From positions 1 through 53,264 of the forward strand of contig NZ_LJIC01000126.1 of assembly GCF_001295845.1 (NCBI RefSeq): 53,264 nt of DNA, read 5' to 3'. Every line of letters starts with the position of its first letter. Position 1 is the stretch's first letter. Below the pieces are notes generated by a model. That model was not told the DNA's origin. It saw only the letters and a program-made list of their open reading frames with translations, and did not search any database. The stretch is from Rhodopseudomonas sp. AAP120 (lineage in GTDB: Bacteria > Pseudomonadota > Alphaproteobacteria > Rhizobiales > Xanthobacteraceae). Positions 26,609 through 41,237 of this stretch are shown here, piece after piece. The translations under genes and the position numbers were made by a program.

Positions 26609-26725
26609 GCTGGCTTTGCTCCCCAAAACTCTTGCAGAGTAGGCTAGCCAGATCGTTCCGCCGCCGCAACCCGACGCAGGTCGGAGGCGAAGCGGGCGCG
26701 ATTGAAATCGATGGAAGGACCGAGA

Positions 26726-28027
26726 ATGACTGCCGACGTGCGCTGGCCGGATTCGCTGTGGGCCGCGGTAACGCCGCCGGGACCCGATCTGCCGGAATTG
26801 CGCGGCACTGAAGCCGCCGACGTCGTGGTGATCGGCGGCGGCTTCAGCGGGCTGTCGACGGCGCTGCATCTGCGAGAGGCCGGCGTCGACGTCGCGGTGG
26901 TCGAGGCCGCCGAGCCGGGCTGGGGCGCGTCCGGCCGCAACAACGGCCAGGTGATCCCGACGCTGTCCCGGCCCGACCCGGACGACATCGTCGCCAAACA
27001 CGGCGCCGCCGGCGAGCGGCTGGTCGGACTGATCCGCGACAGTGCGTCGATCCTGTTCGACGTGGCGCGGCGCCACGGCATCGACGCCGAGCAGGAGCAG
27101 AACGGCTGGGTGCAGCCGGTGCATTCGCCCGGCCGCATCAAGATCGCCGAGCGCCGGGTTCGGCAATGGTCGAAGGTCGGCGCGCCGGTCGAGCTGCTGT
27201 CGCGCGACCAGGTGCGGGACATGCTCGGCTCGGACGCGTGGTTCGGTGGCTTCTGGAACAGGACCGGCGGCCACATCAATCCGCTGGCGCTGGCGCGCGG
27301 GCTCGCCCGTGCCGTCGTCGCGCAAGGCGGAAAAATCTTCGCGCGCTCGCCGGCGACAAGCATCGAGCGCCGCGGCGGTCGCTGGATCGTCCGGACCGCG
27401 CAGGGCGAGATCAGCGGCCGCGCGCTGGTGGTCGCCAGCAACGCCTACACCGGCGAATTCGCCAAGACGCTGGCGCCGGCGATCGCCAGCGAGGTGATGC
27501 CGGTGCGGTCGTGGCAGATGGCGACGCAGCCGCTCGGCGACAACGTGCGCAAAAGCATGATCCCGGGCCGGCAGGCGATGTCGGACACCCACGGCGAACT
27601 GATCTTCGGCCGCTTCGACGCCCGCAACCGCTTCGTCACCGGCGGCGCGATCATCCGGCCGTTCAACCAGGTCGCGACGTTGAAGGCGCGCGTCGGCAGG
27701 CGGCTGCAGAGCCTGTGGCCGCAGATCGGCGAGGTGAAGTTCGACTACGTCTGGAACGGCTTCATCGGCATGACCACCGACTACCTGCCGCACATCCACC
27801 GCCTCGGCCCCAACGCCTACGGCTGGACCGGCTGCAACGGCCGCGGCGTCGCGCTGTCGATCGCGCTGGGCGATCAGTTGTCGAAAGCGGTGCAGGGCGT
27901 GCCGGACGGCGAGCTGGCGTTGCCCTTCACCGAGCCGACGCCGATCCCGGCCAACGAACTGCTCCGCCCGTTCGCGCCGCTGATGATGGTGCTGTACCGG
28001 CATCGCGACAGCAAGGAGATCGCGTAG
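26726..28027 (+). CDS. FAD-dependent amino acid/polyamine-type oxidoreductase (DAO family)
   Basis: A 433-residue flavoenzyme of the D-amino-acid-oxidase fold. The dinucleotide-binding motif VVVIGGGFSGLSTALHL is at about residues 32-48, followed by VVEAAEPGWGASGRNNGQV. This second stretch is typical of the gamma-glutamylputrescine oxidase-like group. The C-terminal FAD motif region GPNAYGWTGCNGRGVALS is present near 370. It probably oxidises an amine or amino acid with release of ammonia. ATG 26726 was chosen for its GGAAGGA site 6 bp upstream; ATG 26711 is possible. No related pathway genes are adjacent. Confidence 0.88.
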   Translation: MTADVRWPDSLWAAVTPPGPDLPELRGTEAADVVVIGGGFSGLSTALHLREAGVDVAVVEAAEPGWGASGRNNGQVIPTLSRPDPDDIVAKHGAAGERLVGLIRDSASILFDVARRHGIDAEQEQNGWVQPVHSPGRIKIAERRVRQWSKVGAPVELLSRDQVRDMLGSDAWFGGFWNRTGGHINPLALARGLARAVVAQGGKIFARSPATSIERRGGRWIVRTAQGEISGRALVVASNAYTGEFAKTLAPAIASEVMPVRSWQMATQPLGDNVRKSMIPGRQAMSDTHGELIFGRFDARNRFVTGGAIIRPFNQVATLKARVGRRLQSLWPQIGEVKFDYVWNGFIGMTTDYLPHIHRLGPNAYGWTGCNGRGVALSIALGDQLSKAVQGVPDGELALPFTEPTPIPANELLRPFAPLMMVLYRHRDSKEIA

Positions 28028-28042
28028 TCACGCTGCCTCTCC

Positions 28043-28122
28043 GTCATTGCGAGCGAAGCGAAGCAATCCAGGGCCACGCACCGGAAGCTGGATTGCTTCG
28101 TCGCTTCGCTCCTCGCAATGAC
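28043..28122 (-). repeat. GTCATTGCGAGG palindromic repeat, copy 3 (inverted)
   Basis: Same family as copies 1 and 2 but reversed: it starts GTCATTGCGAGCGAAGCGAA and ends TCGCTCCTCGCAATGAC. It follows the FAD oxidoreductase gene and precedes the convergent ATC-hydrolase gene. Confidence 0.85.
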
Positions 28123-28203
28123 GAGGTTCACGGTGTCATTTCAGGGATCGAATATACGGCAGGCTCTCACGTGCCCGGCAGGTCCCGCCAATGCCACGCC
28201 CGC

Positions 28204-28689
28204 TTACTTCTTAGCGGCCGCTTTGACCTGGTAGCGGAAGTCGCAGCATTGGCCGTCCGACATCAGCGTACGCGTGCGGGTCAGCTCGACGCGGGGATCG
28301 TAGCCTTCGATGAAACCGTGGTCCCGGTTGCACGAGAGCAGGTGTCCGATCTCCCCCAGCCCCATGTCGCGATACATTTCGGCGTAGCGACAACGATGGA
28401 CGTCGTAACTGAAGCCGGTATCGTCCGCGCGCAGGACCTCGACCTCCAGGGCGTCGTCCTGCGTCCACAGCTTCTGCAACTCCACGAAGCTGCGGATATC
28501 CGCTCCGCCCGGCTCGCGCGCCGCGCATTCGCGGCCCGCCTCGACGGCGGTCTTGGCAATCGCCTCGCCGATCAGCGATTGAGCCCGGTCCTTGCCCAGA
28601 TGCGCGCACAGCGTTTCGTAGATCGGCTTGATGATGCCGGCTTCGATCCGCCGGCGGGCGAGGATGCCGAGTTCTTCTTCCGCGCTCAT
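28204..28689 (-). CDS. L-2-amino-thiazoline-4-carboxylate hydrolase family protein
   Basis: A 161-residue protein that I recognise as the ATC-hydrolase family. It is helical in the first half and then has the conserved stretch VHRCRYAEMYRDMGLGEIGHLLSCNRD (Cys100, Cys120), shown here only as landmarks, and GQCCDFRY near 146-153. Family members open the thiazoline ring of L-2-amino-thiazoline-4-carboxylate to N-carbamoyl-cysteine, but the family is broad. From memory the position before CDFR is usually His; here it is Cys, so specificity may differ. The start overlaps the stop of the amidase gene by 4 bp, so the two are coupled. It is the last gene of the binding protein-amidase-hydrolase operon. 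Confidence 0.78.
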   Translation of the reverse strand: MSAEEELGILARRRIEAGIIKPIYETLCAHLGKDRAQSLIGEAIAKTAVEAGRECAAREPGGADIRSFVELQKLWTQDDALEVEVLRADDTGFSYDVHRCRYAEMYRDMGLGEIGHLLSCNRDHGFIEGYDPRVELTRTRTLMSDGQCCDFRYQVKAAAKK

Positions 28690-29408
28690 GATGAAGCCAA
28701 TTCCGCAGCGGGGAGTCGTTCCAGGACCTCGAGCAGTGCCGCACTCTCGGCCACCGCACCAAACACGCCGCTCTTCTTGATCAGCAGCTGAATGGCTGCC
28801 TCATGCACGGCTTCGAAGCAGGCCCCGGTGCCGTCCGACAGCGTCAGGCAGTCAAAGCCACGGTCGAGCGCCTCGCGCACATTGGTGTGGATGCAGCAGT
28901 CGGTCGTGAGCCCGGTCAGGATCAGGTTGGTGATGGCTCGCTCACGCAGATACTTTTCGATATCGGTGAAGCCGAACGCGCCATAGGAGGGCTTGTCGAA
29001 CACCGGCTCTCCATCGAGCGGAGCGAGCTCCGGGATGATCTGCCAGCACTCGGCACCTTCGATCAGATAGCGCCCTTTCGGGCCCTCGTCACCGACTGCT
29101 ACGCCTTTGCCGTCGATGCCGCGCCAAAGTCGATGCGGCTGCACGTCCGAGAGGTCCGGCTTGAACGTCTCGCGGGTGTGGATCACCGGCAGGCCGATCG
29201 CGCGGCAGGCTTCGAGAACGCGAGCGATGACCGGGATCGGTCGCCGCAGGGCGGAGAGGTCGAAGCCGAACTGGTGCATGTAACCACCCTCGGCGCAGAA
29301 ATCGCCCTGCACATCGATGACGAGTAGGGCGGTGTTGTGCGTCGTCAGCGCGCCGTGAAGCGGAAACGGATAGGGCGTGGAGTTCAGCTTCGGGGCGACG
29401 CCGGTCAT
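28686..29408 (-). CDS. isochorismatase-like cysteine hydrolase (biuret-hydrolase-like amidase)
   Basis: A 240-residue cysteine amidohydrolase. The catalytic triad is visible as Asp32 (LLVIDVQGDF), Lys139 (FDKPSYGAF) and Cys172 (TTDCCIHTNVREA). The opening PYPFPLHGALTTHNTALLVI and the GGYMHQFGFDL stretch resemble the biuret hydrolase / N-carbamoylsarcosine hydrolase branch, which cleaves ureido or carbamoyl amides. ATG 29408 overlaps the upstream binding-protein stop (ATGA). With the ATC-hydrolase-family gene next door, a plausible role is removal of a carbamoyl group from N-carbamoyl-cysteine or a similar compound. Biuret or another ureide is the main alternative. Confidence 0.82.
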   Translation of the reverse strand: MTGVAPKLNSTPYPFPLHGALTTHNTALLVIDVQGDFCAEGGYMHQFGFDLSALRRPIPVIARVLEACRAIGLPVIHTRETFKPDLSDVQPHRLWRGIDGKGVAVGDEGPKGRYLIEGAECWQIIPELAPLDGEPVFDKPSYGAFGFTDIEKYLRERAITNLILTGLTTDCCIHTNVREALDRGFDCLTLSDGTGACFEAVHEAAIQLLIKKSGVFGAVAESAALLEVLERLPAAELASS

Positions 29409-31003
29409 TTCTGCACCCACAGGTCATGCCAGCTGCTGGAGGGCCAACGTGGCGTATTGCGGTCATTGCGAAGTTTTTTGTTAGTGACCGTGATGAACTC
29501 GCGGTCGGTCGCCATCCACACGGGCACCTGCGTGTTGGCCAGCTTCACGAACTCGGTATAGAGCTGCTTGCGCACTTGGGGATTGAGTTCGATCGCTGCC
29601 TTGTCGATGATCTGATCGATCTCGGCATCCTGCCAGCCCCACTGGTTAGTCCAGGGCGCGCCTTTGGTGGCACCGGAGCGATACCAGACCGTCGTGCTGA
29701 CCGCCGGATCGCTCCTGTACTGGTGACGTCCGGTCGCCAGGTCGAAATTCCAGTCGCGGTAGACGTCGGAGAGGAATCCCGCTGCATCTCGCGGCACGAG
29801 TTCGACCTGAATGCCGACCTCGGTCAGGGACTGCTGGATGAAGGTTGCGAAAGAACTGACATCCTCGCCCCACGGCGCGGGCAGCAGTCGAAGTTTGAAG
29901 CGCTGGCCGTTGGTGCGCGGATATCCGGCCTCGTCCAGCAGCTTGTTGGCGAGCGCGACGTCGTATTTCAGATCCGGCGCGCCGGGCACGAAGAAGTCCG
30001 AAGACTGAGGGATCGGGCCTTGTCCGCGTTTGCCGAAGCCGTAAAGCAGGTTCTCGATGAAGAAATCAGTGTTGATGGCGTGAATGATGGCACGCCGCAC
30101 GCGAATATCGGACAGCTCCTTGCGGCGGAAGTTGAACTCCACCGTGTTCTGCACTGCGTTGCCTTCATTGCCCTTGGTGGAGACGTTGAAGTCCTTGTGC
30201 CCGCGAAGCCGATTGATGTCCGACAACGTCAGCGACGTATAAGCGCTGAGGTCCACCGACCCGCTTTCCAGGGCCATCGCCGCCGCCGATTTGTCGGGGA
30301 TGAACTTCCATACGATGCGGTCGAGATAGGGGAAGCCCTGGCGCCAGTAGTCCGGATTGCGGTCGGCGATGATGTACTGACCGCGCTCGTATTTCACGAA
30401 CTTGAACGGGCCGGTGCCGATCGGCTCGATGTTCGCCGGATTGTCGAGAACGTTGGTGCCCTCATAGACGTGCTTCGGCGCGATATACCCGAGGTCCGGC
30501 AATGCGCGCAGCAGCAGGTCCAGCGGCATCGGTTCGGAATACTGGAACACGGCCGTGTGCGCATCAGGTGTTTCAACCGCCTGCAGGCTCCGCTGCAAGG
30601 TCGAGCCATAGTTCAAGTACTTCTTCCAGAGCTCCATCGCGGTGTACTGGACATCTGCCGACGTGAAGGGCTTGCCATCGTGCCACTTCACGTTCTCACG
30701 CAGGGTGAAGGTGATCGTCTTGCCGTCGGCCGACGTTTTCCAGGCGGTCGCCAGCACGCCGACGGGCTTGCCGGCGCTGTCCAGATCCACCAGCGGCTCG
30801 ACGATCTTGCTGCCGACCAGATACACGTCGACCGACGCCCGGATCGCCGGGTTGAGGATGCGTTGCTCCGCATTCATGTGAACGTTGACCACCCCGCCCC
30901 GGAGGGGGGCGTCCTCGGCCAGAACGACGCGGGGCTGCGCCGCGACGAGCGCAGCCAATGCGACCGACGACAGGAACGTGCGCCGGGAAACGAGCGGTTG
31001 CAT
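29405..31003 (-). CDS. peptide-type (family 5) ABC substrate-binding protein, copy A
   Basis: A 532-residue periplasmic binding protein of the DppA/OppA/NikA class, with a Tat-type signal SRRTFLSSVALAALVAAQ at residues 7-24. The open frame reaches 31147, but ATG 31003 places the signal at the N-terminus. It is colinear over its full length with the binding protein at 35651-37267, sharing many identical stretches (KYERGQYIIADRN, FNFRRKELSDIRVRRAI, STTVWYRSG, GAPWTNQWGW). It has no permease in its own operon and probably uses the permease at 32194-35626. It heads the operon with the amidase and ATC-hydrolase genes and is divergent from a LysR gene. Confidence 0.9.
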   Translation of the reverse strand: MQPLVSRRTFLSSVALAALVAAQPRVVLAEDAPLRGGVVNVHMNAEQRILNPAIRASVDVYLVGSKIVEPLVDLDSAGKPVGVLATAWKTSADGKTITFTLRENVKWHDGKPFTSADVQYTAMELWKKYLNYGSTLQRSLQAVETPDAHTAVFQYSEPMPLDLLLRALPDLGYIAPKHVYEGTNVLDNPANIEPIGTGPFKFVKYERGQYIIADRNPDYWRQGFPYLDRIVWKFIPDKSAAAMALESGSVDLSAYTSLTLSDINRLRGHKDFNVSTKGNEGNAVQNTVEFNFRRKELSDIRVRRAIIHAINTDFFIENLLYGFGKRGQGPIPQSSDFFVPGAPDLKYDVALANKLLDEAGYPRTNGQRFKLRLLPAPWGEDVSSFATFIQQSLTEVGIQVELVPRDAAGFLSDVYRDWNFDLATGRHQYRSDPAVSTTVWYRSGATKGAPWTNQWGWQDAEIDQIIDKAAIELNPQVRKQLYTEFVKLANTQVPVWMATDREFITVTNKKLRNDRNTPRWPSSSWHDLWVQK

Positions 31004-31158
31004 CTTCAAGGTTCGACTCCGTTGGCGAATGCGGCTGGGCGAGGGCCGGCAAGCTACTTGCCGGGGCAATTTTCGAGCCGCCGCAGGGCGGTGGGCGCAA
31101 TGGGCGAGGAGAATGGTTTGCTGCTCTCCGCGCCCCGCGTAGTTCAATTTTTCTCACA

Positions 31159-31185
31159 TTAATTCAGCTTAAACGCTGGAATTAA
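31159..31185. promoter_or_regulatory. imperfect palindrome, probable LysR-regulator site
   Basis: Arms TTAATTCAGC and GCTGGAATTAA face each other across TTAAAC in an AT-rich gap between the divergent binding-protein (copy A) and LysR genes. Dyads of this kind are where LysR-type regulators usually bind. It lies 156 bp from the binding-protein start and 52 bp from the regulator start. Confidence 0.5.
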
Positions 31186-31236
31186 ACCGTCAACGGGCTA
31201 TTTATATGAGAATTATTCAATATATGAGGAATGACT

Positions 31237-32127
31237 ATGAGCGAGCGGGACGAGCCGCCGTTGACCTCGGTGCGGGCCTTCGAGGCTGTCGCACGGCTCG
31301 GCGGAGCCACCGCCGCCGCCCGAGAGCTGGGGGTATCGCCGTCGGCGATCAGCCATCAGCTTGCGTTGCTCGATGATTTCATGCGTCAGCCTCTGACCCG
31401 GCGGCAGGGGCGCGGCCTCATCCTGACCGACGCCGGACGCGAATACTTCCGCTCGGTCCGCACGGCTTTCGCGGTGCTGCGCGGCGCGACCGACCAATTG
31501 CGCGAGGGCAGCCGGAGCACGCAGGTTCGGCTCGGCGTGATCCCGCTGTTCGCGCGCGCCTGGCTGTTCCGCAACATGCAGGAGTTCCTGGACCAGAACC
31601 CCAGCATCGACCTCAACGTCTCGTACACCCACCATCGCAACTACGTCAGCGACTCGGCGGATCTCTCGGTTCGTTTCGGCGATGGCAATTGGAAAGGATA
31701 CGAGGCTCACCGGATTTTGTCCGGCGCGATGGCTGCGTTCTGCAGTCCGGCGTACCTGGCCCTGCACCCGGACGTGGCGACGGATCCGAAGCTACTTCAG
31801 AACTACGCACTGATCCACGATCAGGATCGCGCCGGCTGGCAGCAGTGGTGGGACATGCACAGCGTCGAGGGCGAGCCGCCCAACGGGCTGCTGGTCGAGG
31901 ATGGCAATCTCGCGTTACAGGCGGCGCTGGAGGGGCTGGGCATCGCGCTGCTGCGCCCCTCGCTTGTCGATGTGTTCGCCCGCGAGGGACGCCTGCTCCG
32001 GCTTTTCGATCCTGTGCTGGAGGACGGCCGGGACTACTACCTCTGTCATCTCGTCGAGCAGCCGTTGTCCGAGGCGGAGGGACGACTCGTTCGCTGGATC
32101 GTCGATCGCTGCCGGCATTCCCGCTAG
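31237..32127 (+). CDS. LysR-family transcriptional regulator (GcvA-like)
   Basis: A 296-residue LysR-type regulator. The winged helix-turn-helix is at residues about 6-64 (SVRAFEAVARLGGATAAARELGVS, here cited as a landmark region, then SAISHQLALLDD). The effector domain follows at about 90-293, with GLGIALLRPSLVD near 230. The start ATG 31237 has GAGGA 6 bp upstream; ATG 31231 would be too close to it. Its divergent position and the palindrome at 31159-31185 suggest that it controls the binding protein-amidase-hydrolase operon and itself. The inducer may be a sulfur compound or N-acylated cysteine derivative, but that is inference. Confidence 0.9.
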   Translation: MSERDEPPLTSVRAFEAVARLGGATAAARELGVSPSAISHQLALLDDFMRQPLTRRQGRGLILTDAGREYFRSVRTAFAVLRGATDQLREGSRSTQVRLGVIPLFARAWLFRNMQEFLDQNPSIDLNVSYTHHRNYVSDSADLSVRFGDGNWKGYEAHRILSGAMAAFCSPAYLALHPDVATDPKLLQNYALIHDQDRAGWQQWWDMHSVEGEPPNGLLVEDGNLALQAALEGLGIALLRPSLVDVFAREGRLLRLFDPVLEDGRDYYLCHLVEQPLSEAEGRLVRWIVDRCRHSR

Positions 32128-32193
32128 GGGGCGACGCCGGGTGGTGTCGATCGTGCCCGGCTCCGCCGTCCGGAGCGTTGCAGCGTATCGGAG

Positions 32194-33816
32194 CTACGCC
32201 TGAACGTGACTCCGCGCGAAGTCGCCGCCGGGAACAGAGGCGAGCAGCGCCTGAGTATATGGATGCTTCGGCGCGTTGAACACTTCGCCGGCCGGGCCGT
32301 GCTCGACGACTGCGCCGTCCTTCATCACCGCGACGAGGTCGCAGATCTGTGCGGCGACGCGCAAATCGTGGGTGATGAAGATGATCGACAGGCCGAGCTG
32401 CTCGCGCAAGCCGGTGAGCAGCTTTAGCACCTGGGCCTGCACCGAGACGTCGAGCGCTGACACCGCTTCGTCGGCGATCAGCACGTCCGGCTTCAGCGCC
32501 AGTGCGCGGGCGAGGCCAATGCGCTGGCGCTGGCCGCCGGAAAATTCGTGCGGCAGCCGGTCGCCGGCTGACGGATCGAGCCCGACCAGTTCGAACAGTT
32601 TGCGTGCCTCGGCGATCGCCTGCTTGCGCGGCGTGCCGTGGATGATCGGGCCCTGCGCGACGAGTTCCTCGGCCTTGTGGCGCGGATTGAGCGAGGCGAA
32701 CGGGTCCTGAAACACCATCTGCATGTGGCGCGTGGCGCGGCGGACCTCGTCGCGCGGCATCGTCGCCCAGTCGCGACCCTCGAGCAGGATCGAGCCCGAA
32801 TCCGGATCGAGCAGTCGGATGATGCAGCGCGCCAGCGTCGACTTGCCGGAGCCGGATTCGCCGACGATGCCGAGCGTCGCGCCCTTCGGCAGCTTCAGCG
32901 ACACCGACTTCACCGCCTCGGTGACGCGCGCGCCGCGGCCGAGGAATCCGCCGGTGCGGAAGGTCTTCGAGACGTTGTCGATGCTCAGGATGGTGTCGCC
33001 GCCGAACGGCCGCGGCGGCGGCGCGGTCAGCGGCGGCACTGCGGCGATCAGTTGCCGCGTATAGGGATGCTGCGGCCGCTGCAGCACGTCGTCGGCTTTG
33101 CCTTGTTCGACGATCTGGCCATGCTGCATCACCACGACGCGGTCGGCGATCTCGGCGACGACGCCGAAATCATGGGTGATGAACAGCACCGCGGTGTTGC
33201 GCCGGCTCTGCAACTCGCGGATCAAATGCAGGATCTGCGCCTGCGTGGTGACGTCGAGCGCGGTGGTCGGCTCGTCGGCGATCAAGAGCTTCGGATCGAG
33301 CGCAAGCGCCATCGCGATCATCGCGCGCTGGCGCTGGCCGCCGGAGAGCTCGTGCGGATAAGCGCCGGCGGCGCGCGCCGGATCGGGAATGCGCACGTCG
33401 GTGAGTAGCGTCAGCACCTTGGCCTTGATGTCGCGCTTGGACAGATCGGTGTGGATCGAGAACATCTCGCCGATCTGGTCGCCGATGGTCCGCAGCGGAT
33501 TGAGCGCGGTCATCGGCTCCTGGAACACCATGGCGATGCCGGCGCCGCGCACCTGGCGCATCTCGGCAGCGCTGGCCTTCGCCAGATCACGGCCCTCGAA
33601 CAGCACGCGGCCGCCGCCGAGCGCGACGCCGCCGGGCAGCAGCTGCATCACGGCGTTGGCCATGATCGATTTGCCGGAGCCGCTTTCGCCGACGACGCAG
33701 AGGATTTCGCCGGGCGCGATCGACAGCGAGGCGCCCTGCACCGCGTGCGAGCGGTCGGCGCCGGCGGGGAGGCGGACGCTGAGCTTGTCCAGCGTGAGAA
33801 CTGCGGGCGCGGTCAT
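32194..33816 (-). CDS. peptide-type ABC transporter ATPase, two fused domains (DppD-DppF type)
   Basis: A 540-residue protein carrying two complete ATPase domains in one chain. Domain 1 (about 5-255) has Walker A GESGSGKS at 43-50, signature [15 protein letters not shown] and Walker B LLIADEPTTALD. Domain 2 (about 275-535) has [29 protein letters not shown] and VLIADEAVSALD. Each ends with the oligopeptide-type C-terminal motif near YTRQL/YTQALLAS. It energises the permeases at 33813-35626. Its start overlaps the upstream permease stop. The upstream open frame to 33924 lies inside that permease gene and was not used. Confidence 0.92.
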   Translation of the reverse strand: MTAPAVLTLDKLSVRLPAGADRSHAVQGASLSIAPGEILCVVGESGSGKSIMANAVMQLLPGGVALGGGRVLFEGRDLAKASAAEMRQVRGAGIAMVFQEPMTALNPLRTIGDQIGEMFSIHTDLSKRDIKAKVLTLLTDVRIPDPARAAGAYPHELSGGQRQRAMIAMALALDPKLLIADEPTTALDVTTQAQILHLIRELQSRRNTAVLFITHDFGVVAEIADRVVVMQHGQIVEQGKADDVLQRPQHPYTRQLIAAVPPLTAPPPRPFGGDTILSIDNVSKTFRTGGFLGRGARVTEAVKSVSLKLPKGATLGIVGESGSGKSTLARCIIRLLDPDSGSILLEGRDWATMPRDEVRRATRHMQMVFQDPFASLNPRHKAEELVAQGPIIHGTPRKQAIAEARKLFELVGLDPSAGDRLPHEFSGGQRQRIGLARALALKPDVLIADEAVSALDVSVQAQVLKLLTGLREQLGLSIIFITHDLRVAAQICDLVAVMKDGAVVEHGPAGEVFNAPKHPYTQALLASVPGGDFARSHVQA

Positions 33817-34643
33817 CGGCCCTTCAGCCTCGGGTTGAGCGCGTCGTTGAGGCCCTGGCCGACCAGCGACACCGCCAGCACGGTGATCAGGATGGCGATG
33901 CCCGGGATCGCCGAGACGTACCACTGCACGCGCAGCACGTCGCGGCCGAGCCCGATCAGATTGCCCCAGGAGGCGACGTTGGGATCGGACAGCCGCAGGA
34001 ACGCCAGCGCGCTCTCCAGCAGGATCGCCACCGCCATCACCACACTGGCATAGACGATCACCGGCGGCAGCGCGTTGGGCAGGATCTCGCCGAGGATCAG
34101 CTGCAGGTCCTTCATCCCGAGCGTGCGGCCGGCCTGGACGAACTCACGATTACGCAAGCTGAGGAATTCGGCGCGCGTCAGCCGCGCCGGCGCAGGCCAC
34201 GACACGATGCCGACCGCGATCGTCACCGTAGCCAGCGTCGAGCCGAACACCGCGACCAGCACCAATAGCAGCACGAAATTCGGCAGGATCTGGAACGCCT
34301 CGGTGATCCGCATCAGCACGGTGTCGACCCAGCCGCCGAAGTAACCGGCGAAGGCGCCGATCAGGACGCCGATGACGATCGCGATCACGGTCGCGGCGCC
34401 GCCGATCAAGAGCGCGATCCGCGCGCCGTAGAACACCTGCGCGGCGATGTCGCGGCCGGAATTATCGGTGCCGAGCAGGAAACGCGGATTGCTGAATGGC
34501 CAGATCAGTGGCCGGCCGGCGAGCGCGAGCGGATCGCGCGGATAGAGCCAGCCGGCGCTGATCGCCATGCCGATCACCAGCAGCAGCAGGATCAGGCCGA
34601 CAATTGCGGCCGGGCTGCGGAAGTAGCGCTTGATCGCGTCCAT
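33813..34643 (-). CDS. peptide-type ABC transporter permease (DppC-like)
   Basis: A 276-residue permease with about five to six membrane helices. The N-terminal SPAAIVGLILLLLVIGMAIS helix and a DppC-type conserved NSGRD stretch (GTDNSGRDIAAQVFYG, residues about 66-82) are present. The ATPase-contact loop is VQAGRTLGMKDLQLILGEIL. ATG 34643 was chosen; a GTG directly before it (34646) is equally possible. It overlaps the ATPase gene by 4 bp and follows the DppB-like gene within 2-6 bp, so all subunits are co-translated. Confidence 0.92.
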   Translation of the reverse strand: MDAIKRYFRSPAAIVGLILLLLVIGMAISAGWLYPRDPLALAGRPLIWPFSNPRFLLGTDNSGRDIAAQVFYGARIALLIGGAATVIAIVIGVLIGAFAGYFGGWVDTVLMRITEAFQILPNFVLLLVLVAVFGSTLATVTIAVGIVSWPAPARLTRAEFLSLRNREFVQAGRTLGMKDLQLILGEILPNALPPVIVYASVVMAVAILLESALAFLRLSDPNVASWGNLIGLGRDVLRVQWYVSAIPGIAILITVLAVSLVGQGLNDALNPRLKGR

Positions 34644-34648
34644 CACGC

Positions 34649-35626
34649 CTAAGTCTCCGCCGTAATGCGCGGGTCGAGCCGGGCGTAGAGCAAGTCGACC
34701 AGGAAGTTGACGGCGATCACCAGCAGCGCCGAGACGAACACGATGCCGAGCAGCGTATTGAGATCGCGCTGCACGACGGATTCATAGGCCAGCCGCCCGA
34801 GACCCGGCAGCGAGAATACGCTCTCGACCACCACCGAACCGCCCAACATGGTGCCTGCCTGCAGCCCGATCAGCGTCACCATCGGCAGCAGCGCGTTGCG
34901 CAGCACGTGGCGCACGACGATGCGGGTCTCGTCGAGGCCCTTGGCGCGGGCGGTGCGAACGAAATCGAGGTTGAGGACTTCGAGCATCGACGCCCGCATG
35001 ATGCGCAGGTAGATCGCCAGGAAGATCAGCCCCAGCGTCAGCGTCGGCAATATCAAGTGCGCGGCGATGTCCAGCGTTCGCGCGAGGCCGGTGGCGGCCG
35101 CGCCGATGTCCTCGAAGCCGCCGGCCGGCAGCCATTGCAGATAGATCGAGAACACCACGATCGCCATCAGGCCGAACCAGAACGACGGCGTGGCGTAGAA
35201 GATCAGGCCGAGCGTCGAGATCAGAGTATCCGGCCACTTGTTGACGCCGCGCGCCGCAATCACGCCGAGCATCAGGCCGGCGAAGAACGCGAACGACAGC
35301 GAAGCGGTCATCAGCAGCAGCGTCGCCGGCAGCCGCTCGAAGATCACGGTGGCGACCGGCTTGCCGTAGATCGACGAGAAGCCGAGGTCGAACCGCACCA
35401 GCCGCCACAGATACTGGCTGAGCTGCAGCGGGATCGACAAATCGAGGCCGTAGAATTTGCGCAGCTCGCGGGCGGTGGCGGCGTCGCCGCCGCCCATCTG
35501 GGCCATCATCGCGTCGACGGTGTCGCCGGGCGCGAATTGCAGCAACAGGAAGATGCCGATCAGGATCAGCAGCAGGGTCGGGATCGAGGCGGCGAGACGC
35601 CGCCCCGCAAGGCTCAGGATACGCAT
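34649..35626 (-). CDS. peptide-type ABC transporter permease (DppB-like)
   Basis: A 325-residue permease. The first helix (SIPTLLLILIGIFLLLQFAPGD) is followed by a periplasmic segment and five further helices. The DppB-type ATPase-contact region reads LDFVRTARAKGLDETRIVVRH and the C-terminal motif region is VVESVFSLPGLGRLAYESV. It lies 24 bp downstream of the binding protein copy B and directly upstream of the DppC-like gene in one operon. Confidence 0.93.
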   Translation of the reverse strand: MRILSLAGRRLAASIPTLLLILIGIFLLLQFAPGDTVDAMMAQMGGGDAATARELRKFYGLDLSIPLQLSQYLWRLVRFDLGFSSIYGKPVATVIFERLPATLLLMTASLSFAFFAGLMLGVIAARGVNKWPDTLISTLGLIFYATPSFWFGLMAIVVFSIYLQWLPAGGFEDIGAAATGLARTLDIAAHLILPTLTLGLIFLAIYLRIMRASMLEVLNLDFVRTARAKGLDETRIVVRHVLRNALLPMVTLIGLQAGTMLGGSVVVESVFSLPGLGRLAYESVVQRDLNTLLGIVFVSALLVIAVNFLVDLLYARLDPRITAET

Positions 35627-35650
35627 GCGATCATCTTGGCGAAGTTGGCG

Positions 35651-37267
35651 CTATTCGGCCAGCCAAAGATCGTGCCATGTGGAGGAAGCCCAGCGTGGCG
35701 TATTAGAGTGATTTCGGGCCTTCGCCGTTATCACCGTGACGAACAATTGCTCAATTGGCATCCAAATAGGCAGCTCGGTATTGGCGCGGGTAACGAAGTC
35801 GGCGTAAAGCGCTTTGCGCTTGGCCGGATCGACTTCGGTGGCGGCGTCGTCGATGATCTTGTCGATCGTCGCGTCTTCCCAGCCCCACTGATTGGTCCAG
35901 GGCGCGCCCTTCGGCTGGCCGGAGCGATACCACACCGTGGTCGAGACGGCGGGATCGTTGCGATACTGATGCCAGCCGGTGGCGAGGTCGAAGGCGTGCT
36001 CGTCATAGACCTGCTTGAGGAAGCCGCCGCCGTCGTTGCGCACCACTTCGACCTGGATGCCGACTTCGCCGAGCGATTGCTGGATGAAGGTCGCCCACAG
36101 CGAAATGTCCTCGCCCCACGGCGCGGGCAGCAGCCGCAGGGACAGCCGGGTGCCGCCGGCGGCGGGCTTGAGACCCGCCTCGTCGAGCAGTGCGATCGCT
36201 TTCTTCTTGTCGTACGGGTACTGCGGCGTGTTCGGGCCCGGATAGAAGTCCGTCGAGGTCGAGGGGATCGGGCCGGTGCCGAGCTTGGCGAAATCGCCGA
36301 GGAAGTTCTCGATGAAGAACGGCACGTTGATGGCGTGCGCGATGGCGCGGCGGACGCGGATGTCCGACAGTTCCTTGCGGCGGAAGTTGAACTCGATGGT
36401 GTTGGTGCGGGCGTTGCCCTCGTTGCCCTTGGTCGAGACGATGAAGCGCTTGTCCTTGCCGAGCCGCGCGATGTCGGAGATCGTCAGTCCCGAGAACGGG
36501 CTGAGCTGCAGCCCGCCGGCCTCGAGCTGAGCAGCGGCGGCGGCGCGATCGGTGATCACCTTCCAGACGATGCGGTCGAGATACGGCGCGTTCGGCCGCC
36601 AGTAATTGTCGTTGCGGTCGGCGATGATGTACTGACCGCGCTCGTATTTATTGAACTTGAACGGGCCGGTGCCGATCGGCGCGAGGTTGGCCGGGTTCTG
36701 CCGGATGTCGCCGGTCTCGTAGATGTGCTTGGCCGAAACGTAGCCGAGGTCCGGCAGCGCGCGTAGCAGCAGATTGAGCGGCATCGGCCGCTCGTAGCGA
36801 AAGATTGCGGTCTGCGGGTCGGGCGTATCGACCGCGGTGAGGAACAGCTGCAGCGTCGATCCGTAGTTGAGGATCTTCTTCCACATGTTCATCGCCGTGA
36901 AGGCGACGTCCTCGGACGTGAAGGGCTTGCCGTCGTGCCAGACGACGCCCTTGCGCAGCCTGAACGTGATGGTCTTGCCGTCGGGCGACGCTTCCCAGCT
37001 CTCCGCCAGCACGCCGACCGGATTGCCCGCGGCGTCGAGATCGACCAGCGGCTCCTGGATCTTGCCGCCGACGATGTACACGCCGGTCGAAGCCTGCAGG
37101 CTCGGGTTGAGCTGGCGCTGCTCGGCGCCATAGTGGACGTTGAACACGCCGCCCTTGCGCGGCGTCTCCTGCGCGAAGGCGCGCATCGGGTTGATCACAT
37201 TGGCGGCGATCGCGGCCGACGTCAGCAGAATGGTGCGGCGATTGATCTCGAGGCGCGACAAGGCCAT
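35651..37267 (-). CDS. peptide-type (family 5) ABC substrate-binding protein, copy B
   Basis: A 538-residue periplasmic receptor of the DppA/OppA class with a signal containing the Tat-like NRRTILLTSAA at residues 9-19. AGGAG lies 7 bp before ATG 37267. It is the first gene of a complete operon with DppB-, DppC- and fused DppDF-type subunits. It is clearly paralogous to copy A at 29405-31003 along the whole length; by eye more than half of aligned residues are identical. It begins only 129 bp downstream of the cysNC stop on the same strand. That position next to sulfate activation genes suggests a sulfur-containing substrate rather than ordinary peptides. Confidence 0.92.
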   Translation of the reverse strand: MALSRLEINRRTILLTSAAIAANVINPMRAFAQETPRKGGVFNVHYGAEQRQLNPSLQASTGVYIVGGKIQEPLVDLDAAGNPVGVLAESWEASPDGKTITFRLRKGVVWHDGKPFTSEDVAFTAMNMWKKILNYGSTLQLFLTAVDTPDPQTAIFRYERPMPLNLLLRALPDLGYVSAKHIYETGDIRQNPANLAPIGTGPFKFNKYERGQYIIADRNDNYWRPNAPYLDRIVWKVITDRAAAAAQLEAGGLQLSPFSGLTISDIARLGKDKRFIVSTKGNEGNARTNTIEFNFRRKELSDIRVRRAIAHAINVPFFIENFLGDFAKLGTGPIPSTSTDFYPGPNTPQYPYDKKKAIALLDEAGLKPAAGGTRLSLRLLPAPWGEDISLWATFIQQSLGEVGIQVEVVRNDGGGFLKQVYDEHAFDLATGWHQYRNDPAVSTTVWYRSGQPKGAPWTNQWGWEDATIDKIIDDAATEVDPAKRKALYADFVTRANTELPIWMPIEQLFVTVITAKARNHSNTPRWASSTWHDLWLAE

Positions 37268-37396
37268 GCGGTCTCCTGGCAGGAATGAGGCGGGCGGAAC
37301 CCATAAGACGATACGAGGCCGCCGCTGATCAAGCCATTTTCGGTCGCACGTCGTGGAGGGAAGTTGGGCAGTCGCGGCGGCGCCGCGACTGATTGT

Positions 37397-39325
37397 TCAG
37401 ATATGCGCCGCGAGGTCGATCAGTTCGCCGACCAGGACGCCGCTGCTCGCCAGCATGGTCTCGACCTTGTCGGCGGCCTCGGCGACGCTGTGCGCCGAGG
37501 TGTCGATCGTCAGCTCGCTGGCGACCGGCGGCTGATAGTCGGTGCCGATGCCGGTGAAGTTCTGCAGCGCGCCAGCGCGGGCTTTGGCGTAGTGCCCCTT
37601 CGGGTCGCGCTGTTCGCACACTTCCGCCGGCGTCGCCACGTAGATCTCGCGAAAATTCTCACCGGCGATGCGCCGCGCGGCGGCACGATCCTCCAGCGAC
37701 GGCGACACCGCGGCGACGATCGCCACATGGCCGTTGGCGGCGAGATGCGCGGCAATCTCCGCAAGGCGGCGGATGTTTTCGCTGCGGTCTTCCGGCGAGA
37801 AGCCGAGATCGCTATTGAGCCCGGCGCGCAGCGTGTCGCCGTCGAGCAGGATCGGCGAGCCGCCGCGGTCGAACAGCCGCCGCTCGATCGCCTTGGCGAG
37901 CGTCGATTTGCCGGAGCCGGGCAGGCCAGTGAACCACAGCACCGCGCCGGTGTGGCGGAAGCGCGCCGCGCGCTCCTCCGGCCGCAGCGCCGACTCCACC
38001 GGGACGATGTCGGCGGTGGCGGCGCGCTGGCCGGCATCGACGCTCAGCACGAGCCCGCCGCCGGCGATGCGGCCGCCGACTTCGATCACCAGGCGTCCGG
38101 TGCGCGGGAAGGTCTCGGCCGGATCGGCTGCGACCGGCTGCGCCAGCGACAGGTCGATCTCGCCCACGTGGTTGCGGGCGATCGCCTTGGCTTCGCTGCT
38201 GCCGAGATCGCCGGGATCGACCGCCTTCTCGATCGCCACCACGGTGGCGCGGGTCTCGCGGGTGCCGAGCCGCACGAGGATCGAGGCGCCGGCTTCGAGC
38301 GGCTGGTCGTGCAGCCAGAAGATGCGCGCGCGCAGCCGCCGTGTATCACGCGGCGCCGCGCCCGCATGGGCGATGACGTCGCCGCGCTCGACGAACAGCT
38401 CGCGGTCGAGCGTGATGCCGACCGAGCGGCCGGCGCCCTGCGGCCCGGCCACCGGCGTCACCGGCCAGCTTTCGACCGATTTGATCTTGGCGATCTTGCC
38501 GGCCGGCATGATGACGATGTCGTCGCCCGCCTGCAGCCGTCCGGATTCGATGCGGCCGGCGACGATGCGGCGATCGTCGAATTTGTAGATCGCCTGCACC
38601 GGCAGCCGCAGCGCCAGCTGATCGAGCGGCTGCGACGGCGTCAGCGCGTCGAGCGCCTCGACCACGGTCGGACCTTGGTACCAACGAATGTTGTCGGTGC
38701 GCTCGGCGACGCCGTCGCCGTCGCGCGCCGAGATCGGGATCACGGCGGTCGGGGTGACGCCGAGTGAGGTGAGATGTGCGGTGATCTCGTCGCTGATCGC
38801 GCTGAAGCGCTCGGCCGAGAAGTCGACGCGGTCCATCTTGTTGACCACCACCGCGACCTGCTTGATGCCGAGCAGGTGCAGCAGATAGCCGTGCCGCCGC
38901 GTCTGGTCGCGCACGCCTTCGAGCGCGTCAATGATCAGCACCGCGCCATCGGCCTGCGAAGCGCCGGTGATCATGTTGCGCAGGAATTCGGCGTGGCCGG
39001 GTGCGTCGATCAGGACGACGTCGCGCGAGCGCGTGCGGAAGCTGATCTGTGTGGTGTCGATGGTGATGCCCTGGTCGCGCTCGGTCTGCAGCGCGTCGAG
39101 CAGGAACGACCATTCGAACGGCATGCCGCGGCGGGCGCTGACGGCCTTCAGCATTTCCAGCTTGCCGTCCGGCAGCGAGCCGGTTTCGTGCAGCAGGCGG
39201 CCGACCAGCGTCGACTTGCCGTGGTCGACATGGCCGACGATGACGATGCGGACCAGCGGCCGCGTGGTGCCGTTCGGGGTGGTTAGCGAGGCGGGCGGGA
39301 CCGCAATGGTCATGGCGTCACTCAT
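37397..39325 (-). CDS. cysNC: bifunctional sulfate adenylyltransferase subunit 1 / adenylylsulfate kinase
   Basis: A 642-residue fusion. Residues about 20-450 are the CysN GTPase that drives adenylyl-sulfate (APS) formation: G1 GHVDHGKST (31-39), G3 DAPGH (107-111), G4 NKMD (162-165). Residues about 455-642 are APS kinase (CysC): P-loop GLPGSGKST (467-475), LDGDTLRAGLNSDLGFS (494-510) and EQRDPKGHYAKARAG (571-585). The product is PAPS. It partners with CysD, whose gene ends 14 bp upstream. MSDAMT (ATG 39325) is preferred; ATG 39313 is an alternative. The frame open to 40219 overlaps cysD and is not used. Confidence 0.95.
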   Translation of the reverse strand: MSDAMTIAVPPASLTTPNGTTRPLVRIVIVGHVDHGKSTLVGRLLHETGSLPDGKLEMLKAVSARRGMPFEWSFLLDALQTERDQGITIDTTQISFRTRSRDVVLIDAPGHAEFLRNMITGASQADGAVLIIDALEGVRDQTRRHGYLLHLLGIKQVAVVVNKMDRVDFSAERFSAISDEITAHLTSLGVTPTAVIPISARDGDGVAERTDNIRWYQGPTVVEALDALTPSQPLDQLALRLPVQAIYKFDDRRIVAGRIESGRLQAGDDIVIMPAGKIAKIKSVESWPVTPVAGPQGAGRSVGITLDRELFVERGDVIAHAGAAPRDTRRLRARIFWLHDQPLEAGASILVRLGTRETRATVVAIEKAVDPGDLGSSEAKAIARNHVGEIDLSLAQPVAADPAETFPRTGRLVIEVGGRIAGGGLVLSVDAGQRAATADIVPVESALRPEERAARFRHTGAVLWFTGLPGSGKSTLAKAIERRLFDRGGSPILLDGDTLRAGLNSDLGFSPEDRSENIRRLAEIAAHLAANGHVAIVAAVSPSLEDRAAARRIAGENFREIYVATPAEVCEQRDPKGHYAKARAGALQNFTGIGTDYQPPVASELTIDTSAHSVAEAADKVETMLASSGVLVGELIDLAAHI

Positions 39326-39339
39326 GGTCGGACGTTTGC

Positions 39340-40215
39340 TTACAGATAGCCGGCGACGCGCAGACGCTCGAACGCGTCCTCGGTCTCGTGGTCGAGCGCG
39401 CGGCCGGCGCGCTCCGGCACCTTGGTGGTCTGTAGTTCGTGCAGGATCTCGTCGATCGACGAGGCGTTCGAGGCCACCGGGAAGGTGATGTCCTGATCGC
39501 CGAGCGAGCGATAGCGCTTGCCGTTCTGCGACAGATACAGCGGGATGATCGGGATGTTCTCGCGCTTGGTGTAGGCCCAGATATCCGCCTCGGTCCAATG
39601 CAGGATCGGGTGGATGCGCAGGTGAGCGCCGGGCGGCGGCGAGGCGTTGAACTGATCCCAGAATTCCGGCGGTTGATCGCGCACGTCCCATCCACCCTCG
39701 GTGCCGCGCGGCGAGAACACGCGCTCCTTGGCGCGGGTCGCTTCCTCGTCGCGGCGGATGCCGGCGATCAATCCGTCGAAGCCGTATTTGGCGAGCGCCA
39801 TCTTCAGGCCCTCCGTCTTGCGCGCCGCGGAGCGCGCCGCCGGCGGCAAGGTCGGGTCGACGCTGTCGATCGGCGGGCAGGGATCGACGCGCAGGTCTAG
39901 ATCCCATTCCTTCGCGTAATGTTCGCGGAAGGCGTACATCTCGGGAAACTTCTTGCCGGTGTCGACGTGCAGCGCCGGGAACGGCACCTTGCCGAAGAAC
40001 GCTTTCCGCGCCAGCCAGATCATCACGTTGGAGTCTTTGCCGAGCGACCACAGCAGCGCCAGCTTCTTCAACCGGGCGAAGCCCTCGCGCAGGATGTAGA
40101 TGCTCTGCGCTTCCAGCGCGTCGAGGTGATCCATCGGCGGCAGCGCGTCGCGCGGCGGAAGATCGGGCAGCGACGCCGGCTGCGCGGCGCGAAGTTCGGG
40201 TGCAGCGAGGGTCAT
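39340..40215 (-). CDS. cysD: sulfate adenylyltransferase subunit 2
   Basis: A 291-residue ATP pyrophosphatase-type enzyme that makes adenylyl-sulfate from ATP and sulfate with CysN. The PP-loop is SLGKDSNV near residue 57, followed by LARKAFFGKVPFPALHVDTG. Further conserved stretches are GIRRDEEATRAKER and HWTEADIWAY. The PP-loop region (LLWSLGKDSNVMIWL) differs somewhat from the enterobacterial form. It is the first gene of the cysD-cysNC operon. The 281-bp gap to the divergent cysH gene contains a long palindrome that is a candidate regulatory site. Confidence 0.94.
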   Translation of the reverse strand: MTLAAPELRAAQPASLPDLPPRDALPPMDHLDALEAQSIYILREGFARLKKLALLWSLGKDSNVMIWLARKAFFGKVPFPALHVDTGKKFPEMYAFREHYAKEWDLDLRVDPCPPIDSVDPTLPPAARSAARKTEGLKMALAKYGFDGLIAGIRRDEEATRAKERVFSPRGTEGGWDVRDQPPEFWDQFNASPPPGAHLRIHPILHWTEADIWAYTKRENIPIIPLYLSQNGKRYRSLGDQDITFPVASNASSIDEILHELQTTKVPERAGRALDHETEDAFERLRVAGYL

Positions 40216-40368
40216 GCACAGGCTCCCGGCAGAGCAGGTCCGGACTGGTCCGGACCGCCGTTGTCGCGCGGAGAAGATGGCGTCATCATCGTCAGGAGAA
40301 CGAACATCTCTGCGGCGCGTAAGTGAGGGATGGAATTTCTACAATGGAAGCCCTCAACAGAAAGAATA

Positions 40369-40410
40369 ATTTTCTATCGATCTGGCTTGTAAGATACATA
40401 GATAGAAAAT
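40369..40410. promoter_or_regulatory. long inverted repeat in the cysD-cysH divergent promoter region
   Basis: Perfect 10-bp arms ATTTTCTATC and GATAGAAAAT separated by 22 bp, in a strikingly AT-rich patch of otherwise GC-rich DNA. The right arm overlaps a second small dyad, TAGAAA-ATA-TTTCTA, at 40403-40417. It lies 154 bp from the cysD start and 87 bp from the cysH start. A CysB/Cbl-like LysR regulator responding to sulfur supply is the likeliest binder, but none is encoded beside it. Confidence 0.55.
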
Positions 40411-40496
40411 ATTTCTAGTCAATCCTTCTTCGGTCACTTCACGCCGCGGCGCGTTGATGAACCGCCAACGCGACCGGCGCAGAAAGTCATTCGGCT

Positions 40497-41237
40497 ATGA
40501 GCGAGCTCACCCAGCACTCCCCTTCGCAGGCTCCGGCGCGCGACGCGGTGGCCGTGCGCGCCGCCACGTTGAACAGCGCGCTGCATGGTGCCTCACCGGC
40601 GGAGATCATCGCTGCCGCGGTGCGTGAGCTCGGCCGCGACCGCGTCGCGCTGGTGTCGTCGTTCGGCACCGAGTCGGCGGCGCTGCTCAAGGTGATGGCG
40701 GATGTCGATCCGGCGATCCCGGTGGTGTTTCTCGACACCGGCTGGCTGTTCGCCGAGACCCTCGCGTATCGCGATACGCTGATCGATCAGCTCGGCCTCA
40801 CCGACGTGCGCTCGATCAAGCCGCTGCCGGCGGATCTCGACCGCGACGATCCGGCACAGGATCTGTGGTTTTCCGATCCGGACAAATGCTGTTTCATCCG
40901 CAAGGTCGAACCGCTGCGCCGCGCATTGGCGCCGTTCGATGGCTGGATCAATGGCCGCAAGCGATTTCAGGGCGGCGCGCGCGCGGAGATCCCGGTGGTC
41001 GAAGCCGATGGAGTGCGTTTGAAATTCAATCCGTTCGCCGACGTCTCGCGCGAAGAGATCGACGCGATCTACACGCTCGGCAAATTGCCGCCGCATCCGC
41101 TATTGGCGTCCGGGTTCCTCTCCGTCGGCTGCATGCCGTGTACCAGCCGCGCGTCGTCAGCCGACGATACGCGCTCCGGCCGCTGGCAGGGCCGCAGCAA
41201 GACGGAATGCGGCATTCACACGATGAAGACTTCGTAG
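40497..41237 (+). CDS. cysH: assimilatory adenylylsulfate (APS) reductase, CysH family
   Basis: A 246-residue reductase that makes sulfite from activated sulfate. The nucleotide-binding start is VSSFGTESAALL (residues 53-64). It has the paired cysteines Cys131-Cys132 (DKCCFIRK) and Cys212/Cys215 (GCMPCT), which hold a [4Fe-4S] cluster. The catalytic Cys238 lies in TECGIH near the C-terminus. The cluster motif marks it as an APS reductase rather than the cluster-free PAPS reductase of enterobacteria. It is divergent from cysD-cysNC. The sulfate-binding protein gene follows on the same strand after 124 bp. Confidence 0.93.
   Translation: MSELTQHSPSQAPARDAVAVRAATLNSALHGASPAEIIAAAVRELGRDRVALVSSFGTESAALLKVMADVDPAIPVVFLDTGWLFAETLAYRDTLIDQLGLTDVRSIKPLPADLDRDDPAQDLWFSDPDKCCFIRKVEPLRRALAPFDGWINGRKRFQGGARAEIPVVEADGVRLKFNPFADVSREEIDAIYTLGKLPPHPLLASGFLSVGCMPCTSRASSADDTRSGRWQGRSKTECGIHTMKTS

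Follow-up and report, generated by a model that had tools for sequence, protein, structure and literature searches.

On evidence that we judge evenly balanced, the genes between positions 28029 and 32206 of the window (the whole 53,264-nucleotide stretch analysed), encoding a LysR regulator, a family-5 binding protein (SBP1), an amidase and an ATC hydrolase, may form a cysteine-releasing module of the Pseudomonas kind in which, judging by sequence relationships, an amidase of the isochorismatase fold would replace the M20 carbamoylase. The substrates named here for the locus are all putative. A thiazoline, for example 2-amino-thiazoline-4-carboxylate, would be bound by SBP1 and imported, probably via the adjacent DppBCDF transporter; by its kinship, the PF14196 enzyme would open the thiazoline ring to give carbamoyl-cysteine, from which the amidase would remove the carbamoyl group, leaving cysteine, ammonia and CO2. 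In this way the amidase, encoded on the opposite side of the ATC gene, would stand in for the beta- and gammaproteobacterial M20 carbamoylase as its non-orthologous replacement. Both N- and S-carbamoyl-cysteine are recorded as intermediates in an excerpt of a review (PMC10821248). Around the block lies a second cassette (SBP2-DppBCDF, a FAD oxidoreductase and a VOC protein), which in the genus is mostly next to cysDNC. The features of the locus are listed below; cysD, cysNC and sbp-cysTWA owe their names to translations and to the order kept in relatives rather than to a family scan.

25751..26608 (start approximate), minus strand: VOC / Glyoxalase_3 protein
26702..28027, plus strand: FAD-dependent oxidoreductase, DAO family (Pfam)
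28204..28689, minus strand: ATC hydrolase gene, PF14196 (Pfam, 135.6 bits; cut-off 28.1)
28686..29408, minus strand: isochorismatase-fold amidase, biuret-hydrolase-like, PF00857 (Pfam; alternative GTG start at 29420)
29405..31003 (ORF to 31147), minus strand: SBP1, family-5 binding protein, SBP_bac_5 (Pfam)
31004..31230, no strand: divergent promoter region, LysR/SBP1
31231..32127, plus strand: LysR regulator (Pfam)
32194..33816 (ORF to 33924), minus strand: fused, two-domain ABC ATPase of the DppDF type (Pfam)
33813..34646, minus strand: DppC-type permease (Pfam)
34649..35626, minus strand: DppB-type permease (Pfam)
35651..37267, minus strand: SBP2, family-5 binding protein of the importer, SBP_bac_5 (Pfam)
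37369..37391, minus strand: G+C-rich hairpin, 10 bp, directly 3' of the cysNC stop, without a T tract
37397..39325, minus strand: cysNC (translation and kept gene order in relatives)
39340..40215, minus strand: cysD (translation and kept gene order; relatives in 16/16 same-genus genomes)
40497..41237, plus strand: cysH, PAPS reductase (Pfam)

The gene set and the ATGA coupling claimed in the preliminary description were borne out by the Pfam families and by stop and start codons that overlap between SBP1 and the amidase (ATG at 29408) and between the amidase and ATC (ATG at 28689). Both overlaps recur in two other genomes of the genus, G585 and G557, in which about 9.1 kb of the locus aligns with unchanged order and a nucleotide identity of 87%, so that the gene order is not due to chance. 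The importer with a second binding protein, likewise described earlier as lying 129 bp from cysNC, was confirmed in both spacing and families; the FAD oxidoreductase and VOC genes beside the block had not been mentioned. The 71-base stretch with the hairpin directly after the cysNC stop folds with a z of -3.78, and the scan for T-tract terminators listed none there; the promoter and terminator scans as a whole gave no promoters, against 1.6 in shuffles, and five terminators, against 7.9.

The PF14196 match of the ATC protein is full-length (positions 1–145), and C100, G110, C120, D123, R138, T141, C149 and F151 are identical in 132/132 aligned rows, picked by BLAST to the window ATC. A V4R-like fold is predicted; a sequence search of the PDB gave no match up to an E value of 1. 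The best 80 of 194 named ATC relatives are 60–70% identical and all from beta- and gammaproteobacteria, and in 80/80 of these the start of an M20 carbamoylase-family gene falls in the interval from 3 bases upstream to 59 bases downstream of the ATC stop, a count that leans towards that branch because the profile query combined the window ATC with five M20-linked beta/gamma relatives and only the best 80 of 194 were kept. The window-type amidase had no match in any of the 80. In a tree of 63 of 120 rows (M20-linked rows thinned to every third; a quick method, with a long-branch warning), the window ATC falls in a 30-row clade (SH-aLRT 93) whose other rows are M20-linked or are its two same-genus kin, away from the FAD-oxidoreductase-linked rows. 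Among 84 ATC-bearing plasmid records, 11 were examined; one lacks annotation at the ATC gene, and in one neither partner adjoins it. On a Shinella plasmid, ATC-M20 is followed by a PLP gene of the cysteine synthase family. A tally of partners (35% identity, up to 3.5 kb away) covered 122 longer ATC loci, the window not among them: M20 in 89, FAD oxidoreductase with M20 aminoacylase in nine, an acyl-CoA-synthetase-like gene in four, FAD oxidoreductase with the window-type amidase in two, aminoacylase alone in two, and none of the five partner types tested in 16. The tie of the ATC gene to the Pseudomonas enzyme is one of genus, family and gene order.

The window LysR is 43–52% identical to the LysR proteins of ATC-M20 operons, where the gene is divergent in 79/80 (again the best 80 of 194). 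An ATC gene is no more than 9 kb away for 88/88 LysR proteins of at least 40% identity and for 11/16 weaker ones; this linkage is no independent support, as ATC genes were the anchor for retrieving the loci. Beside the LysR start, in the divergent promoter region, is a 10-letter word of the TCATATATTG type, found with one mismatch in 47/79 other ATC-M20 operons, where three shuffles gave 28 or fewer; in the operons inspected it overlaps the LysR start codon. The sharing of this word with ATC-M20 operons is a weak hint.

Within the genus, the LysR-SBP1-amidase-ATC block behaves as a separate presence/absence unit, carried by 3/16 genomes. The preliminary description had set it inside a sulfate-assimilation island and had suggested asking whether the SBP-isochorismatase-PF14196 set co-occurs with cys genes across genomes. 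It is near cysD in only one of the three carriers; in G585 and G557 the block lies 1.8–2.0 Mb away, and six same-genus genomes with importer and oxidoreductase have no ATC gene at E 1e-15. We therefore rejected the block as a fixed part of the island. The linkage stands for the importer, present in 9/16 genomes and about 2.1 kb from cysD in seven of the nine, mostly without the block. SBP1, 64% identical to SBP2, has no permease of its own within the block.

The alternative that survives best, which we consider rather unlikely, makes the whole locus a route from thiazolidines to cysteine: the FAD oxidoreductase would turn a thiazolidine-4-carboxylate (an adduct of cysteine with an aldehyde or a keto acid) into a thiazoline, which the PF14196 enzyme would hydrolyse to an N-acyl-cysteine; an amidase would then remove the acyl group, with ATC a side substrate. 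The order Lrp, VOC, family-5 SBP, DppBCDF, FAD oxidoreductase, ATC, M20 aminoacylase and PLP enzyme is found in six same-family genomes and on an Agrobacterium plasmid, and in the two copies scanned the PLP enzyme scores 565.5 and 563.1 bits against the L-cysteine desulfhydrase Cds1, short of the cut-off of 600. Four more plasmid loci pair a FAD oxidoreductase with ATC, one of them also with Rid. The gene directly before SBP2 in G585 and G557 encodes an M20 aminoacylase, 57% identical to the operon type. Operons joining ATC, aminoacylase and desulfhydrase-like genes, together with the G585/G557 aminoacylase, point to cysteine and to a possible thiazolidine route. The window oxidoreductase is 47–51% identical to those of eight same-family loci, and its best NCBIfam match, the L-pipecolate oxidase AmaA (NF050086; 258.3 bits, below the cut-off of 600), acts on a cyclic amine. 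An excerpt of PMC9814826 cites bacteria and mitochondria as converting timonacic (thiazolidine-4-carboxylate) to N-formylcysteine. Against this, the window ATC clusters with the M20-carbamoylase-linked rows, the six genomes noted above have oxidoreductase and importer without ATC, and the window oxidoreductase is convergent to the ATC block, outside its operon, with no aminoacylase of the G585/G557 type in the 53 kb. The open-access literature searched gave no such activity for an enzyme of the oxidoreductase family and, in a search not aimed at the exact combination, no FAD oxidoreductase-ATC operon.

Returning to the module with a replaced carbamoylase, the amidase is coupled directly upstream of ATC in 3/3 carriers, none of which has an M20 carbamoylase gene adjoining ATC; in the window, the block ends with ATC. 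That the amidase instead acts on a sulfur-free ureide (biuret or a relative) for nitrogen, its coupling to ATC being incidental, is improbable. Its closest solved structures are of the BiuH/TrtA kind (best match 235.9 bits) and it scores 266.4 bits against the biuret hydrolase family NF050097, but this is below the cut-off of 370, and the ATGA coupling is kept in all three carriers. By alignment, D36, F41, E84, K143 and C176 are kept, including the catalytic triad D36, K143 and C176, whereas Y146 and K216 stand, in 3/3 carriers, where BiuH has K145 and Q215; a structure model made without an alignment reached a pLDDT of 31.4, so residue placement rests on the sequence alignment. Among the relatives examined, which were top matches (27 from the family, 17 from the phylum, two plasmid loci, plus the three carriers), 45/46 others have K and Q. 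In an excerpt of PMC7948467, alanine at K145 of BiuH abolishes all activity and alanine at Q215 more than 90% of it. With both biuret-binding residues replaced, biuret is an unlikely substrate, and a plain biuret hydrolase was rejected on this ground and on the NF050097 score. K216, which takes the position of the biuret-binding glutamine, may contact the carboxylate of the substrate. The Y/K pair is not specific to cysteine derivatives, as it recurs in one Rhizobium plasmid protein; beside its gene lie deaminase and NMT1-type transport genes, and the stretch read contains no ATC gene, which would fit action on a sulfur-free ureide. No amidase of at least 60% identity was present among 748 matching records of the plasmid collection, and an isochorismatase-fold amidase in an ATC operon was not found in the open-access literature by a search not aimed at that exact combination.

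The amidase replacement put forward in the preliminary description thus gains from the kinship of ATC and LysR, the coupling in 3/3 carriers, the absence of an adjoining M20 gene and the loss of two biuret-binding residues, and loses its placement in the island. Against it, the amidase is upstream of ATC whereas M20 is downstream in relatives, and SBP1 lacks its own permease. The amide step could also fall to the G585/G557 aminoacylase or to carbamoylase-family proteins of the window's own genome, 42% (on another contig) and 41% identical to the operon-type M20; no protein there exceeded 42% identity to one operon-type M20 query. Family-5 binding proteins often bind peptides or nickel chelates. 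A reading of SBP1 and the importer as ordinary peptide importers, accidentally linked to sulfur metabolism, would agree with their best NCBIfam matches (to Opp4A and NikA, well short of the cut-off) and with the missing cys adjacency in 2/9 importer genomes. It is improbable given that the genomes with SBP2 are the same 9/16 as those with the oxidoreductase, and that in six same-family genomes relatives of SBP1-DppBCDF (54–63% identical) are part of operons containing ATC genes.

Tentatively, PF14196 enzymes may be a widespread hub regaining cysteine from its cyclic adducts: cyanide adducts by ring opening and decarbamoylation, and thiazolidines (aldehyde or keto-acid adducts) by the action of an FAD oxidoreductase followed by ring opening and deacylation. 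Parts of both routes would be joined in the window beside cysDNC, with the isochorismatase-fold amidase as a carbamoyl- or acyl-cysteine hydrolase. If true, the replacement would exemplify enzyme exchange within a known sulfur-scavenging pathway and assign a role to a sub-branch among the biuret-hydrolase-like proteins whose members similarity could mislabel; the alphaproteobacterial operons would encode a candidate thiazolidine breakdown pathway (FAD oxidoreductase, ATC hydrolase, aminoacylase and desulfhydrase).

The Pseudomonas pathway from ATC to cysteine, reportedly described by Shiba in 2002 and by Tashima in 2006, has the genes atcB and atcC. Like it, the window has a PF14196 gene (63–70% identical to Pseudomonas ATC genes with M20 next), LysR beside it and a coupled amidase gene; unlike it, the amidase is of the isochorismatase fold and upstream of ATC, whereas the M20 gene is downstream, and the binding protein is of family 5, in contrast to the branched-chain-type binding protein and transporter of most of the 80 M20 loci (best 80 of 194). 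With the alphaproteobacterial operon of the Agrobacterium plasmid, the window shares related SBP, Dpp, FAD oxidoreductase, VOC and ATC genes, but that operon has another ATC branch, an M20 aminoacylase, an Lrp regulator and a desulfhydrase-like last gene. The amidase shares about 50% identity, fold family and catalytic triad with BiuH-type relatives (PMC7948467, in excerpt), and differs from BiuH in the changes K145 to Y and Q215 to K and in its coupling to an ATC hydrolase gene. N-carbamoylsarcosine amidohydrolase (1nba) and RutB (8bkd), by name isochorismatase-fold hydrolases of carbamoyl acids, match it at 46.6 and 72.1 bits (best match, 235.9) and offer a precedent for the type of reaction.

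The gene positions of the preliminary description were reproduced, as were, to the base, its ATGA overlaps and the 129 bp between cysNC and the importer (SBP2, DppB, DppC and the fused ATPase DppDF). Family scans name the hydrolase of 2-amino-thiazoline-4-carboxylate (ATC; PF14196), an isochorismatase-fold amidase, two family-5 binding proteins, LysR, two permeases, the fused ATPase and cysH; cysD, cysNC and sbp-cysTWA were named without a family scan, from their translations and the gene order kept in relatives. The genome has one PF14196 gene; the amidase gene lies upstream of it, between SBP1 and ATC, and in the window no same-strand gene follows ATC before the convergent oxidoreductase gene:

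26702–28027, plus strand, FAD oxidoreductase gene
28040–28130, inverted intergenic repeat of the TCATTGCGAGCGAAGCGAAGCAATCC type, in the gap separating the oxidoreductase gene from ATC
28204–28689, minus strand, ATC hydrolase gene
45692–46693, NiFe-hydrogenase small-subunit gene, directly 3′ of the sulfate transporter genes

Of 398 phylum genomes, 30 gave a PF14196 match. A search with the window ATC protein at E 1e-15 picked up relatives in 74 of 391 family genomes, with identities of 88% or more in just three. Out of 194 relatives found, the 80 best named ones (60–70% identity) belong to Pseudomonas, Enterobacterales and Burkholderiales. Each of these 80 has an M20 gene whose start falls within a range from 3 bases ahead of the ATC stop to 59 bases past it, and the one operon M20 protein scanned scores 394 bits with the hydantoinase/carbamoylase model TIGR01879 (cut-off 204). 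A divergent LysR gene, its product 43–52% identical to that of the window, lies upstream of ATC in 79 of the 80; at the remaining locus, L164, the contig ends at the ATC gene. A tree of 63 rows, made by a quick method from thinned rows, unites the window ATC with its two same-genus relatives in one clade (99), itself nested in a 30-row clade (SH-aLRT 93) whose other rows are M20-linked; the rows linked to a FAD oxidoreductase stand apart. At four loci (L087, L089, L093 and L096) a different PF14196 branch adjoins a gene similar to acyl-CoA synthetases (AMP-binding) and branched-chain-type transporter genes; a window open frame (9501–11057) has 33% identity with the L087 AMP-binding protein. 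Second PF14196 copies, assigned by Pfam match or record annotation, share a gene run with the first copy and lie close to it at L098 (2827–3333), L249 (2756–3268) and L253 (2663–3160); they are perhaps heteromeric partners.

All 132 aligned ATC rows agree at eight residues, of which three are cysteines. A model built from 25 sequences (mean pLDDT 87.1) found its best matches in the PoxR and MopR sensor domains, which are of V4R type (E ~2e-5, TM-score 0.55); PF14196 has already been grouped with V4R and heme-NO-binding domains, with a common three-cysteine cluster (PMC5847659). We infer that the active site is metal-bound.

The amidase shares about 50% identity with BiuH-type proteins (biuret hydrolases) and scores under the biuret hydrolase cut-off. 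In BiuH, alanine at D36, K142 or K145 is described as abolishing activity, and changes at F41 or Q215 as removing more than 90% of it (PMC7948467). The window protein retains D36, F41, K143 and C176, and has Y146 for K145 and K216 for Q215, as do both same-genus relatives. K and Q occupy these two biuret-binding positions in 45 of 46 other relatives, the top matches of family, phylum and plasmid searches; the exception, with Y and K, is a Rhizobium plasmid protein (54%; L243, 8983–9681). Its neighbours encode deaminases, an OYE-type reductase and an NMT1-type binding protein, with no ATC gene in the annotated stretch, and it is possibly part of another carbamoyl-acid pathway; the pair thus indicates an altered substrate and not specifically cysteine. 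In partly overlapping genome draws, window-type amidases (>90% identity) occur in three of 391 family genomes, the best other match in 398 phylum genomes is 53%, and 327 order genomes gave none at E 1e-76 except the genome's own. The same genome encodes a second isochorismatase-fold relative (45%; G000:C130:5934-6569).

Among 16 same-genus genomes, at the E limits used, cysD is present in all, SBP2 in nine, the FAD oxidoreductase in the same nine and ATC in three. The proposed linkage to cys genes is partly supported for the importer, with about 2.1 kb separating SBP2 and cysD in seven of the nine; it is not supported as proposed for ATC, which lies 1.8–2.0 Mb from the cys genes in two of its three carriers (G585 and G557). 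In G593 and G499, aligned in detail, both flanks match the window and ~28029–32206 is missing, the gap being filled by ~360 bp of other, repeat-like intergenic DNA. In four genomes that lack ATC, the oxidoreductase and SBP2 genes share a contig and are no more than 4 kb apart; in two more such genomes they are on different contigs. LysR–SBP1–amidase–ATC therefore behaves as one presence/absence unit and SBP2–DppBCDF–oxidoreductase as another.

Two neighbours, the FAD oxidoreductase gene and a VOC gene (about 25751–26608, minus strand), were missed in the preliminary description. Six family genomes (L085, L086, L090–L092 and L095) and an Agrobacterium plasmid share the order Lrp, VOC, SBP, DppB, DppC, DppDF, FAD oxidoreductase, ATC, M20 aminoacylase, PLP enzyme; Azospirillum, Martelella and Sagittula plasmids carry variants, one with a Rid gene. 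Two copies of the PLP enzyme reach 565.5 and 563.1 bits with the L-cysteine desulfhydrase Cds1 model, under its cut-off of 600. Cysteine as product is consistent with such a desulfhydrase-like last step and with Rid. At E 1e-60 a Cds1-like gene is present in seven of the 16 same-genus genomes, including four of the six that have the importer and lack ATC; the three ATC carriers have none at this limit. This would fit assimilation of cysteine in the carriers, although the absence of one family proves little.

A wider idea, resting on gene neighbourhoods and cited reports, is that the locus would serve a thiazolidine route. Directly before SBP2, where the window has cysNC, G585 and G557 have an M20 aminoacylase gene (L081, 17227–18393; L082, 16862–18028) followed by a gene of weak VOC similarity (33%); the aminoacylase is 57% identical to that of L085 and passes TIGR01891 (353 bits; cut-off 153.75). 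This aminoacylase next to the importer strengthens the idea; the reports, cited in PMC9814826, are of timonacic turnover to N-formylcysteine.

The best-supported reading, which we judge evenly balanced between right and wrong, is that the isochorismatase-fold amidase takes the role of the M20 carbamoylase in the ATC block. The M20 gene lies 3′ of ATC in the ATC-M20 operons, whereas the amidase gene lies 5′ of it in the window, so that any replacement would be of function within the block and not of the same slot. Both N- and S-carbamoyl-cysteine are recorded as Pseudomonas intermediates (PMC10821248), and N-carbamoylsarcosine amidohydrolase and RutB, of the same fold family as the amidase, are by name precedents for the reaction type.
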